A DNA stretch of 27,093 nucleotides from a virus: the IMG/VR virus record IMGVR_UViG_3300037189_018721, positions 1 to 27,093 of that record; one strand, written 5' to 3'. A model generated the notes under the pieces. The model was not told the origin of the DNA. It searched no databases and saw only the letters and a list, made by a program, of their open reading frames with translations. Positions 649-25,936 of this stretch are shown here, one piece after another; the first letter of the stretch is position 1, and each line of letters starts with the position of its first letter. A program made the position numbers and the translations under genes.

Positions 649-911
649 AATTTAAAGTTATTGCTAACCTTGTTGATGGGGTCATTGCTGCAAATAATAA
701 TAATATTGTTTGTTTCAAAGAAAACTCACTTAGAGATAAAAATGGAGAAGATTCATTATATGATTCAGAAGGAATTTATATTGGCCAAATCCTCACCGAA
801 AAAATGCATCGAAATGCTGATATATATTGGTGGTATACCAAAAAAGAATGGACACAAATGAACAAAATGTTCATGAAAATTCATAAAAAAACTCAAAATA
901 AAAAAGCTTGA
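645..911 (+). CDS. Small protein of unknown function, translationally coupled to thyA
   Basis: Not recognised. It has 88 residues, and its ATG overlaps the thyA stop in an ATGA, so translation is probably coupled. The first ~16 residues ([16 protein letters not shown]) read like the first strand and loop of dihydrofolate reductase, the enzyme often encoded next to thyA. The rest (aromatic YWWY near residue 61, then a Lys-rich tail) does not look like DHFR, and 88 residues is about half a DHFR. I therefore do not call it DHFR. The tight coupling suggests it is expressed with nucleotide metabolism; function is open. Confidence 0.75.
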
Positions 912-939
912 AAAGTGTTTCTACTTACTATATATTGTA

Positions 940-968
940 GTGCGTTAGGTGTCAATAGCTTATCGCAC
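940..968 (+). promoter_or_regulatory. Imperfect stem-loop in the leader of the vWA gene
   Basis: GTGCG (940-944) pairs with CGCAC (964-968). After one T-T mismatch, TAGG (946-949) pairs with CTTA (959-962) including one G-U. The loop is about 9 nt. There is no T-run after it, so it is not a standard terminator. It lies 35 nt before the ATG at 1004 and could affect mRNA stability or translation. The rest of the 92-nt gap (912-1003) is AT-rich and shows nothing else clear. Confidence 0.25.
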
Positions 969-1003
969 AATACTTAACAATTAACAATTAAACATTAGAA
1001 ATT

Positions 1004-2020: not shown

Positions 2021-2026
2021 TATAAT
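2021..2026 (+). promoter_or_regulatory. Candidate -10 box (TATAAT) touching the terminator stem
   Basis: A perfect TATAAT ends at the base before the left arm of the 2027-2065 hairpin. Transcription starting ~7 nt downstream would begin inside the left arm, so that transcript could not form the terminator. The same layout recurs at 3199 and 7692. TATAAT is common by chance in DNA this AT-rich, so a single instance is weak evidence. Confidence 0.35.
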
Positions 2027-2070
2027 GATGCCGGTATATTAGTTCTAAATATAGATACCGGCATCTTTTT
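2027..2070 (+). terminator. Intrinsic terminator after the vWA gene
   Basis: An 11-bp perfect stem, GATGCCGGTAT (2027-2037) with ATACCGGCATC (2055-2065), has a 17-nt AT-rich loop and is followed by five T. The GC-rich stem stands out in AT-rich surroundings. The next ATG is only 17 nt beyond the T-run. Confidence 0.88.
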
Positions 2071-2086
2071 GATAAATTCAATTCTT

Positions 2087-2578
2087 ATGGCAAGACCAAA
2101 AAAGACAATTAAAAATGAAGATTTCAAATCTAAACTCGCAAAAAAATTGAAGATGTCTTCAGAAACAACTGAACCATCTGAGTTAGATGAAGTTAATATT
2201 AAACCAAAGAAAGTAAAAAAATTATCAAAGGCCGAAGAAACTGAATTAGAAGATGATATTATTGGTAAGTCATTTAAAATAATTCCAGTATCATTTCCTC
2301 CATCAACAATTGAGTATGATTCATTTTATAATATTCCAAAAGAGAATATTGTAACAAAAAATACTGATCTTGGAACTCGCGTGATTGTTGCAAAATATCC
2401 GGCATTTTATAAAATTTATCTGATTAAATATCATGAAAAAGGAACTCCGTTTTATCCAAATGGTGGAGTCGAAGTGTATAATTCTACATTTGATATGAAA
2501 CAAAGTTTCCCATTACAAAGTGTGGCGGTGCATCCTACAAAAAAGGATAAATACAGAGTAACTATAATCGACGAATAA
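2087..2578 (+). CDS. Unknown protein with a basic, charged N-terminus
   Basis: Not recognised. I chose the ATG at 2087; an upstream in-frame TTG at 2069 lies in the terminator T-run and is unlikely. The 163-residue product begins MARPKK, an AT-hook-like basic motif, followed by a Lys/Glu-rich and probably disordered region to about residue 60. The remaining ~100 residues look globular and beta-rich (aromatic and Pro-rich, with TRVIVAKYPAFYKIYLIKYH). It could bind nucleic acid through the basic start, but that is inference only. It directly follows a terminator and is followed by a 136-nt gap. Confidence 0.78.
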   Translation: MARPKKTIKNEDFKSKLAKKLKMSSETTEPSELDEVNIKPKKVKKLSKAEETELEDDIIGKSFKIIPVSFPPSTIEYDSFYNIPKENIVTKNTDLGTRVIVAKYPAFYKIYLIKYHEKGTPFYPNGGVEVYNSTFDMKQSFPLQSVAVHPTKKDKYRVTIIDE

Positions 2579-2642
2579 AAATTATAATAACTCGACAGAC
2601 TAAGAGTGATAGAGTACTCTCATACGTACAAATTAATTTAAA

Positions 2643-2663
2643 GTCATGACTGGTTATCATGAC
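2643..2663 (+). promoter_or_regulatory. Short stem-loop in a 136-nt intergenic gap
   Basis: GTCATGA (2643-2649) and TCATGAC (2657-2663) form a perfect 7-bp stem with a 7-nt loop. No T-run follows, so it is not a typical terminator. It sits about 50 nt before the ATG at 2715. The rest of the gap (2579-2714) contains a short GAGTACTC palindrome and AT-rich sequence, with no gene. Confidence 0.25.
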
Positions 2664-2714
2664 ATGTTACAATAAAACCAATAAATAAAATACATAAATT
2701 AGGAATAGCATAAT

Positions 2715-2930
2715 ATGGCTACTAAAGCAGTGAATCAAGACAATGGAACAACTTCTAACAAGAAGTTTGTTGTTACCCGCAGTGGAGTTCGTGTATCTGA
2801 TCGCGAATATGATAATGTTAATGATGCCGGTGATGAAGTGGCACATTGGAAAAAGATCGTATCTCGTTGGCCAGATGGGTCGAAAATTAGTGTTGAAGAA
2901 TATAATGATAAGAAACATCGTGTATATTAA
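2715..2930 (+). CDS. Small protein of unknown function
   Basis: Not recognised. 71 residues, mostly charged, with a Trp/Lys-rich middle (HWKKIVSRWPDGSKI) and no membrane segment. The ATG follows an AT-rich leader with no Shine-Dalgarno. It is separated by 3 nt from the next small gene, so the two are probably co-transcribed. An overlapping +1 frame from 2743 is an unsupported shadow. Confidence 0.7.
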   Translation: MATKAVNQDNGTTSNKKFVVTRSGVRVSDREYDNVNDAGDEVAHWKKIVSRWPDGSKISVEEYNDKKHRVY

Positions 2931-2933
2931 TCT

Positions 2934-3179
2934 ATGAATAAAACAAATACCACAGGATTGCGTGAAGCGATTGTAAATGCAACATCAGTCGATGAAGTTG
3001 AATCACTATTAAAGCAAGGATATGATACTTTCACGGTTGCTAGTGAAAGAACCAAGCGTAGTTGGAAGTTATCTGCCAGAAAGCGATTAATTCAATTGCA
3101 AAAACCGAATTCAGCATCAGAAGAAGGTTCTGAACAAAAGGTAACTAAAAAGTCACAAAAGAAGAGTGTAAAGAAATAA
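2934..3179 (+). CDS. Small basic protein of unknown function
   Basis: Not recognised. 81 residues. The N-terminal ~60 residues look helical (SVDEVESLLKQGYDTF), with an Arg/Lys-rich patch near 42-56. The tail is almost pure Lys/Ser/Gln, so it may touch nucleic acid (inference). It lies 3 nt after the preceding gene and ends 29 nt before the hairpin at 3209, which would close this small operon. Confidence 0.7.
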   Translation: MNKTNTTGLREAIVNATSVDEVESLLKQGYDTFTVASERTKRSWKLSARKRLIQLQKPNSASEEGSEQKVTKKSQKKSVKK

Positions 3180-3194
3180 GTATATATACATATA

Positions 3195-3207
3195 TATTTA
3201 TAAAATA
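3195..3207 (+). promoter_or_regulatory. Candidate late-type promoter box, TATTTATAAAATA
   Basis: This exact 13-mer also occurs at 25924-25936, again between genes. It contains TATAAAAT (3199-3206), close to the TATAAATA -10 element recognised by T4 gp55, and a gp55-like sigma gene is present at 9221. The box ends 1 nt before the terminator stem at 3209, so initiation would fall inside the left arm. Chance occurrence in AT-rich intergenic DNA cannot be excluded. Confidence 0.4.
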
Positions 3208-3208
3208 G

Positions 3209-3242
3209 AACGTCACTAAATTCAATTTAGTGACGTTTTTTT
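3209..3242 (+). terminator. Intrinsic terminator, long perfect stem
   Basis: AACGTCACTAAATT (3209-3222) is the perfect complement of 3224-3237 around C3223; in practice the loop opens to a few bases. A run of seven T follows (3236-3242). It would end the 2715-3179 transcript. The next start codon is 35 nt beyond the T-run. Confidence 0.9.
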
Positions 3243-3277
3243 GTTTTTGTAATAGTCTTACCGATATTTATTTACGT

Positions 3278-3625
3278 ATGCCAAAAAGTAAAAAAACAAA
3301 GTCGTCATACACGCCATATTTGTTACCATCAAATTTTGAGGAAATGGATAAATTTATTGAATTAAATAAAACGGTTATGACAGAGCAGGTTGTCGCGTCT
3401 ATCGAATATGCGCTTGAAAAAAATATTCCCGTTGTTGAAGTTTTCAAATTTAAAAGTTCTGATTTTGTTATAACTCTATCATATGATAGTTTTCAAAACA
3501 ATCTTGAGAATGTTTACAAATATTACATTGACACAGAAAACTATGAATTGTGTGCCAGAGTAAAAAAGTTAGAAGATAAATTAAATGCAATTTCTTATAA
3601 ATTAATTACGCATGAAAAAAAATAA
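3278..3625 (+). CDS. Small protein of unknown function upstream of phoH
   Basis: Not recognised. The frame is open from 3230, but an ATG there lies inside the terminator; the ATG at 3278 gives a credible 115-residue protein starting MPKSKKTK. The body is mixed alpha/beta with a helical C-terminus (ARVKKLEDKLNAISYKL) that may form a short coiled coil. It overlaps the PhoH gene by 14 nt, which implies co-expression. No motif gives a function. Confidence 0.75.
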   Translation: MPKSKKTKSSYTPYLLPSNFEEMDKFIELNKTVMTEQVVASIEYALEKNIPVVEVFKFKSSDFVITLSYDSFQNNLENVYKYYIDTENYELCARVKKLEDKLNAISYKLITHEKK

Positions 3626-4332: not shown

Positions 4333-4343
4333 ATATACTTATA
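4333..4343 (+). promoter_or_regulatory. Repeated AT-rich motif ATATACTTATA before a virion gene
   Basis: The same 11-mer lies at 21260-21270. Both copies precede virion genes, ending 14 nt (here) and 6 nt (there) before the ATG. It could be a late promoter element or simply AT-rich leader sequence; the unequal spacing weakens the promoter reading. Confidence 0.25.
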
Positions 4344-7691: not shown

Positions 7692-7697
7692 TATAAT
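7692..7697 (+). promoter_or_regulatory. Candidate -10 box (TATAAT) touching the terminator stem
   Basis: A perfect TATAAT ends at 7697 and the left arm of the next hairpin begins at 7698, the same arrangement as at 2021-2027. Initiation ~7 nt downstream would begin within the stem. Chance AT-rich matches are possible. Confidence 0.35.
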
Positions 7698-8960: not shown

Positions 8961-9224
8961 ATGATATTGACAATCGTTATATTAAGTGTATTGTTATTAG
9001 CATCAATAGGATTAAACTTTTATTTTTCTAATAAATTATTGAATGCAATAAGTTCAATTGAAGAAAATCAGCAATTTATAAATAAAATTGCAAAAGAAGT
9101 TGATTCTACGTATAAGCAATTAAAATATATTGATGATAGACAAATGTTTGAGAAAGATGATGATGTTGGATTTGTTTTTACAAACATTGTAGATTTGATA
9201 GACCAATTAAATCAAAAAATATGA
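8961..9224 (+). CDS. Small single-span membrane protein
   Basis: 87 residues. One hydrophobic segment at about 2-24 (ILTIVILSVLLLASIGLNFYF) works as an N-terminal anchor. The remaining ~60 residues are charged and helical, probably a coiled coil, and would face the cytoplasm or periplasm. No lipobox is seen. It ends in an ATGA overlap with the late sigma gene, so the two are translationally coupled. Function is unknown. Confidence 0.8.
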   Translation: MILTIVILSVLLLASIGLNFYFSNKLLNAISSIEENQQFINKIAKEVDSTYKQLKYIDDRQMFEKDDDVGFVFTNIVDLIDQLNQKI

Positions 9225-10141
9225 TTACAAAAAATAAACGTAAATTATTAAAAAAAACTAAATTAGTTAAAAAATATAAAAAGAATAAACAATTAAGTAA
9301 AAAATTGGTAAAGTCAAAGGGAAAGCGTAAAAAGACAAATGTAATTCCTACAAAGCCAGTTAAAAAAATTAAGGAAAAGGCTAAGGAACCCAAAATTAAT
9401 GTTGTGGTTCCTGAAATTATTATAGAGGCGGAAGAAAAGCCAAAAAAATCTCCGGTAATGTATTTTACTAAAGATACCGAAACTGCTATTATTGAATATA
9501 ATAAAGAAGAGGATATGGAGAAAAGAAATCAAATATATAATGAAAAAATTAAATATAGTTTTGAAAAATTGGTAGAAAATATTTTTTATACATTTAAATT
9601 TACATATTTTGATAATTCTCCTGCTGAAATTCAAAAAGAAACGGTTGCACATTTAGTTGCAAATATAAGTAAATTTCAAGAAAATAAAGGTAAAGCATTT
9701 GGTTATTTTAGTATTATTGCCAAGCATTATTTAATTTTCCACAATAATAATAATTACAAACGTTTTAATCAAAATGTAGATATTAGCGACACACCAAGTG
9801 AAACCACCGTATGTTTACAAGTAGAAGATAAATATTATAAAAACACTGAGATGGGTGAATTCATGAAGATGATGATAGCCTATTGGGAAAAAAATGTTGG
9901 TAAAATTTTTACTAAACAAAAGGATCTCAATATAGCAAATGCAGTAATTGAACTATTTAGAAATAGTGATCGCATCGACGCATTTAATAAGAAAGCATTG
10001 TATTTGTATATTCGTGAAATTAGTTCATGTAAGACACAACAAATTACTAAAGTAATTAATAAAATGAAACAATATCAAACTAATATTACTAAATGTTATA
10101 TTAATAATGGTATATTACAACAAAATCCTTATAAAACGTAA
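9221..10141 (+). CDS. Late-transcription sigma factor, gp55-like
   Basis: 306 residues. Residues ~80-185 (starting YFTKDTETAIIEYN, with KRNQIYNEKI and AFGYFSIIAKHYLIFHNNNNYKR) match the sigma region 2 pattern of T4-type late sigma factors, which bind host RNA polymerase core and read a -10-only late promoter. A helical C-terminal part (~210-290) contains a possible helix-turn-helix around LYIREISSCKTQQITK. The first ~75 residues are an added tail extremely rich in Lys and not part of the fold; gp55 of T4 is only about 185 residues. It is translationally coupled to the upstream membrane-protein gene and precedes the baseplate block it probably activates. A gp33-type co-activator was not seen in the window. 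Confidence 0.85.
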   Translation: MITKNKRKLLKKTKLVKKYKKNKQLSKKLVKSKGKRKKTNVIPTKPVKKIKEKAKEPKINVVVPEIIIEAEEKPKKSPVMYFTKDTETAIIEYNKEEDMEKRNQIYNEKIKYSFEKLVENIFYTFKFTYFDNSPAEIQKETVAHLVANISKFQENKGKAFGYFSIIAKHYLIFHNNNNYKRFNQNVDISDTPSETTVCLQVEDKYYKNTEMGEFMKMMIAYWEKNVGKIFTKQKDLNIANAVIELFRNSDRIDAFNKKALYLYIREISSCKTQQITKVINKMKQYQTNITKCYINNGILQQNPYKT

Positions 10142-21259: not shown

Positions 21260-21270
21260 ATATACTTATA
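21260..21270 (+). promoter_or_regulatory. Second copy of ATATACTTATA
   Basis: Identical to 4333-4343 and also directly before a virion gene (ATG at 21277). The 44-nt gap also has a weak 6-bp hairpin, ATTTCT/AGAAAT (21245-21261), without a T-run. It may help restart transcription after the very large upstream gene; evidence is only the repeat. Confidence 0.25.
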
Positions 21271-25920: not shown

Positions 25921-25923
25921 TAA

Positions 25924-25936
25924 TATTTATAAAATA
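25924..25936 (+). promoter_or_regulatory. Candidate late promoter box, TATTTATAAAATA
   Basis: Identical to 3195-3207 and also intergenic. TATAAAAT is close to the T4 late -10 element. It ends 14 nt before the ATG at 25951 and could transcribe the last three genes separately from the long structural block. Support is only the repeat and the presence of a gp55-like sigma gene. Confidence 0.35.

Follow-up and report, generated by a model that had tools for sequence, protein, structure and literature searches.

Genes and terminators of the window

The window, i.e., the whole stretch of DNA analysed here (27,093 bases), is an entire IMG/VR virus record. It is AT-rich (30% G+C) and carries nearly all of its genes on the + strand. 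Genes for thymidylate synthase, PhoH, a baseplate wedge protein, and a RuvC-like protein are found among them, indicating that the window is part of the genome of a T4-related myovirus. Megablast with the first 9 kb found no named phage that matches closely, and the window gave no hits in Rfam and tRNA scans. Relatives are found among viral contigs. One of them (L003) is 95-98% identical in DNA to the window, three (L004, L005, and L013) are about 75% identical, and the others are at 70% and below. Eight contigs are referred to as the window group and six further relatives form a second set. All contigs are metagenomic fragments in which gene starts were simply called as the first ATG, and nonredundant genes were counted. 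The features discussed below are as follows.

2021..2026, + strand: TATAAT upstream of terminator 1; not a conserved promoter, common only to the window and the near-identical L003
2027..2070, + strand: intrinsic terminator 1 downstream of the VWA gene, with stem, 17-nt loop, and T-run; stem altered by a compensatory change in L003
3199..3206, + strand: TATAAAAT upstream of terminator 2; not conserved
3207..3242, + strand: intrinsic terminator 2; in nearly all of 37 orthologues, with differing stem sequences
3263..3271, + strand: putative late promoter box GATATTTAT; its motif A lies 14 nt upstream of ATG 3278
3278..3625, + strand: conserved 115-aa gene, first of the PhoH operon; predicted to be near-leaderless
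4334..4342, + strand: putative late box TATACTTAT of the tail-fibre-like gene 4358; its motif A at -23 would give a leader of about 11 nt
7692..7697, + strand: TATAAT upstream of terminator 3; not conserved, otherwise only in L003
7698..7732, + strand: intrinsic terminator 3; stem pair G-U changed to G-C in L003
7741..7749, + strand: putative late promoter box GATATTTAT behind terminator 3; its motif A lies 14 nt upstream of ATG 7756
9221..10141, + strand: probable divergent gp55-like late sigma factor; helical core preceded by a Lys-rich N-terminus
21261..21269, + strand: putative late promoter box TATACTTAT, also in the G3 and G7 orthologues; its motif A lies 15 nt upstream of ATG 21277
25922..25930, + strand: putative late box AATATTTAT of gene 25951, shared with G3 and G7; its motif A at -28 would give a leader of about 16 nt

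Each of the three terminators consists of a conserved G+C-rich hairpin followed by a T-run. As judged from sequence comparison they are credible, stems 1 and 3 by their compensating or improving changes and stem 2 by its conserved hairpin, although two of the site 2 orthologues (L180 and G5) score poorly in the terminator scan. In L004, L005, and L013, gene 2087 directly follows the VWA gene without a terminator, implying that an insulator was added in the lineage of the window, with no new promoter to be seen. The VWA gene itself (starting at 1004) has a sigma70-like TTGAAA-17-TATATT and a hairpin in its leader of about 65 nt (window 908-1003). A similar promoter and hairpin, with differing stem letters, are found upstream of the VWA gene in L004 and L005.

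Boxes upstream of the terminator stems

A sequence-only reading of the window had proposed that the boxes directly preceding the three stems are promoters. RNA started at such a box would begin in the left arm of the stem, so that only read-through RNA would form the hairpin and terminate. The boxes and stems at 2027, 3209, and 7698 are located as described. At site 1 the stem GATGCCGGTAT (2027) directly adjoins TATAAT (2021-2026), and at site 3 the stem AGACTCTG (7698) directly adjoins TATAAT (7692-7697). At site 2 the stem AACGTCAC (3209) begins 2 nt after TATAAAAT, or immediately after it if the stem is counted from 3207. The reported box-stem gaps of 0, 2, and 0 nt are thus correct with this one qualification. 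The distances from T-run to ATG are 16, 35, and 23 nt; the first had been given as 17.

Each single adjacency has a P of 0.03-0.05 when its own 40-nt flank is shuffled with dinucleotides kept; that all three intergenic terminators of the window show one is notable but was noticed post hoc. Among 108 nonredundant intergenic terminators from 14 contigs, five have a box within 0-2 nt of the stem. The comparison with shuffled sequence that had been suggested shows this number to exceed dinucleotide shuffles (0.67 expected), but when columns are permuted so that the A-rich flank is kept, 2.0 are expected (P 0.045) and the excess nearly vanishes. Much of it is accounted for by the A-rich flank opposite the T-run. 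A general sigma70 scan likewise found 82 sites vs. 83.3 in shuffles, i.e., no excess.

A search of the relatives, also suggested earlier, goes against the boxes. At site 2 a box abuts the stem in only 2 of 37 distinct orthologues and is gone in the other 35, while the terminator is retained in nearly all. The 75% relatives (L004, L005, and L013) lack sites 1 and 3, which are seen only in the window and L003, so that conservation is judged at site 2. The boxes before terminators are mostly a by-product of AT-rich flanks, and promoters starting in the left arm are very improbable. At site 1, where no late box (see below) is present and TTGTTA-17-TATAAT is a fair sigma70-like match, the idea is conceivable, with support limited to the near-identical L003. 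E. coli-style TATAAT boxes can thus be misleading in AT-rich phage DNA.

A perfect ATATTTAT at window 3194-3201 overlaps TATAAAAT just upstream of terminator 2, in the window and L003 only. RNA started at this copy would merely be short and end at the terminator. In L004 and L013 its place is taken by AT-rich repeats.

A conserved box between terminators and gene starts

At sites 2 and 3 the conserved box is found not before the stem but downstream of the T-run. It is [TG]ATA(T/C)TTAT, i.e., TATAYTTAT/GATATTTAT, mostly 12-15 nt before the ATG. In the orthologues of gene 3278 (no homologue of which was found in GTDB genomes), GATATTTAT, GATACTTAT, or a similar element is retained between T-run and ATG, and in 32 of 37 the last 30 nt before the ATG include a perfect ATAYTTAT, mostly at -14 or -17. 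Genes similar to 7756 in two relatives (G14 and G17) likewise carry the box, and the TATACTTAT box before the tail-fibre-like gene has identical spacing in G1, G2, G3, and G7. The + strand of the window contains 14 perfect ATAYTTAT, six of which fall within the 790 intergenic bases; ATAYTTAT is absent from 2071-2086, between terminator 1 and gene 2087. Before gene 2715, the noncoding segment 2643-2714 is partly conserved and contains GTCATGACTGGTTATCATGAC, and L004 and L005 keep TGACTGGTTATCGCATATCA.

Genome-wide counts were made over genes preceded by a gap of 20 nt or more. ATAYTTAT starts at -18..-12 in 27 of the 201 such genes of the window group (shuffle mean 0.35, max 3), in which the motif was first noticed. 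The corresponding figure is 61 of 469 (shuffle mean 0.99, max 4) in the six further relatives, which were chosen after a pattern count showed an excess there, three contigs with weaker excess being left out. The perfect box covers only about 13% of gap-preceded genes. Its starts peak at -12..-15, with 22 at -12 and none at -11..-8. Operon-internal genes rarely have it in place (3/106 in the window group and 8/288 in the further relatives). A perfect box is in place after 18 of 53 terminators with a gene 10-130 nt downstream (0.44 expected), and boxes are also found behind tRNA genes. The box genes of known role are those for a head-tail adaptor and a tail fibre; many others are of unknown role. 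At the position of a -35 element, information content is near zero across 88 perfect sites, and upstream of the boxes weak AT-rich tracts occur at about helical-turn spacing. Microcystis phage Mel-JY01 and the sampled part of LR756508 are without a start-codon-locked box. An EM motif search picked up tRNA T-arms rather than promoters.

Another class of genes has TTGAC at about -45..-29 of the ATG, also locked to it. The two signals are nearly exclusive (late box in 94 genes, TTGAC in 60, and both in one). The TTGAC class precedes genes for helicase, DHFR, glycosyltransferase, and ATPase, mostly of metabolism, with one exception, a baseplate hub gene. Restriction of the late box to first genes, its position after terminators and tRNA genes, and its exclusion of TTGAC all fit its being a promoter.

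In the 369-kb relative G9, TTGAC promoters cluster at 280-320 kb (L193-L211). Their limit is at -34, and 30 genes have TTGAC at -42..-32 (2.2 expected). The 280-320 kb segment is probably an early region with near-leaderless mRNA. The TTGAC promoters of G9 have TCTGATA -10s.

A candidate late sigma factor

The gene at 9221-10141 has homologues in the whole group, in the cultured Flavobacterium phage immuto, in Mel-JY01, and in a 484-kb metagenomic phage. The predicted structure of its product has a confident core (about residues 81-180 and 211-290) and a disordered Lys-rich N-terminus. Most structure matches are to sigma factors, but they are weak, with PDB E values of 0.14 and worse. In BFVD the best match (1.5e-5) is nameless and the next (0.0076) is a Bacillus phage sigma. 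Pfam and PHROGs scans of the protein itself, as well as a sequence-profile search of PDB, found nothing. PHROG 234 (late sigma factor) is matched by the distant homologue L233 only (1.3e-7). A scan of the relatives with sigma alignment A3 gave two loci, and the patterns were low-complexity. The weak structure matches together with the one PHROG hit in a distant homologue suggest that 9221-10141 probably encodes a divergent gp55.

Start point and leader length

In T4 late promoters, the 8-base box starts at -13 (PMC2988020). The distance from box to ATG here equals that from a -10 element to the start point; therefore, transcription is expected to start on the A of the ATG or no more than about 4 nt upstream. 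The hard limit seen at -12 is also as predicted for a start on that A. In the T4 register, leaders of 0, 1, 2, 3, and 4 nt are implied for 23, 24, 24, 10, and 7 genes, i.e., for 88 of about 138 cases, to which a longer tail is added, with 11-16 nt for some boxes. Zheng et al. (PMC3160421) recognise leaderless genes in silico by a TA-like signal located about 10-12 bp upstream of the start. Shine-Dalgarno-like motifs are rare at operon-internal starts in most contigs.

The working unit would be an intrinsic terminator, a spacer of about 10-45 nt, the late box [TG]ATA(T/C)TTAT, and then the ATG. The terminator, observed as a structure, is expected to halt read-through from the upstream operon. 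The box, whose motif, orientation, and position are observed, would act as a -10-only late promoter, and host RNA polymerase carrying the phage gp55-like sigma probably recognises it. With RNA synthesis starting so close to the ATG, the late mRNA would be leaderless or nearly so. Boxes upstream of the stems would be unnecessary in such a unit. We consider it likely that a terminator is combined here with a -10-only late promoter, probably read by a gp55-like sigma, and that RNA starts at the AUG or 0-4 nt before it. Compact insulation by a terminator plus a -10-only promoter, as proposed by the sequence-only reading, is thus retained, but with another box and in the order terminator, late box, ATG. 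Similarly, the gp55-type sigma it invoked is plausible as the reader of a -10-only promoter, though not at the upstream TATAAT or TATAAAAT boxes.

Alternative explanations of the box

The motif lies 4-8 nt before the ATG, a possible position for a ribosome signal, and Shine-Dalgarno-like motifs are rare in these contigs. It could thus be a translation-initiation element, a Shine-Dalgarno substitute in a longer leader, and no promoter. Against this, only 11 of 394 operon-internal genes have the motif, and it stands behind terminators and tRNA genes and excludes the TTGAC class. In immuto the motif precedes late genes at variable and larger distances, a shift not expected of a ribosome element. 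We regard this explanation as quite improbable. The core of the motif is also complementary to the T4 late box, TATTTATA being the reverse complement of T4 TATAAATA, which would allow an antisense late promoter. The distance to the downstream ATG is fixed with a hard limit, though, sense-strand position 4 is C or T rather than A or G, and the reverse complement of the motif has no peak before gene starts. An antisense promoter is extremely improbable.

If the box is a promoter in the sense direction, it might still serve the host's own sigma rather than the phage gp55-like one. Apart from its final G, the Bacteroidota -7 element TAHHTTTG is similar to TATAYTTA; as in F. johnsoniae, AT-rich tracts lie upstream at intervals of one helical turn (PMC6847099); and one relative infects Flavobacterium. 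On the other hand, a separate TTGAC class that excludes the box is expected with different early and late sigmas, and the gp55-like gene is conserved across the group. Recognition by a host sigma is unlikely.

Comparison with known promoters

Like a T4 late promoter, the one proposed here has one A/T box of 8 bases, located about a helical turn upstream of the start, and no -35 element (PMC2988020). As in the T4 late system (gp55/gp33/gp45), the box precedes late genes and a gp55-like protein is encoded (PMC2988020). It differs in sequence, TATAYTTAT/GATATTTAT instead of TATAAATA, and in being locked to the ATG. TATAAATA occurs five times, with no peak. TA-led bacterial genes have in common with the box genes a TA-rich, -10-like signal located about 10-12 bp upstream of the start codon (PMC3160421), whereas here phage late genes are concerned and the motif is longer and stricter than TANNNT.

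Promoters of Bacteroidota sigma-ABfr (TTTG/TAHHTTTG) overlap with the box in TATA(T/C)TTA and also have AT-rich tracts at helical-turn spacing (PMC6847099). Their last position is a near-invariant G, where A is found here, and a near-invariant T of theirs may be C here. TAnnTTTG has no peak before gene starts. Leaders at such host promoters average 33 nt, whereas the leaders implied here are about zero. AR9 and phiKZ also use short phage-specific late motifs with defined start points, but these are read by phage multisubunit RNA polymerases and are AACA-6N-TA/G and TATG (PMC5312081).

There is perhaps an even chance that the arrangement extends across a widespread group of T4-related and jumbo phages with few Shine-Dalgarno sites, with start-codon-locked TTGAC early and TATAYTTAT late promoters, leaderless mRNA for many first genes, terminators as upstream insulators, and a divergent gp55 reading the late box. 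The box provides a testable late-promoter consensus and predicted start points for a large, mostly uncultured phage group, in which the hard limit at -12 would permit promoters and start codons to be annotated from sequence. Leaderless late mRNA, as box positions suggest, would imply leaderless late translation, for which reports on T4-related phages were not found in the literature searched, itself incomplete in coverage.

Immuto (Immutovirus) has a homologous gp55-like protein (34% identity) and ATATTTAT/TATTTATAA before late genes (portal, terL, and PhoH), several of them behind terminators. Its leaders are about 6-20 nt and its box is not start-codon locked, unlike that of the window group. 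A Bacteroidota host for the window's phage was suspected from immuto and the missing Shine-Dalgarno sites; this is weakened by the TTGAC promoters. In immuto (L190), a block that recurs upstream of many small genes, GTTGC...TATATTTAGGTATCAATAATTAAAAC, resembles an early promoter cassette that has been multiplied.
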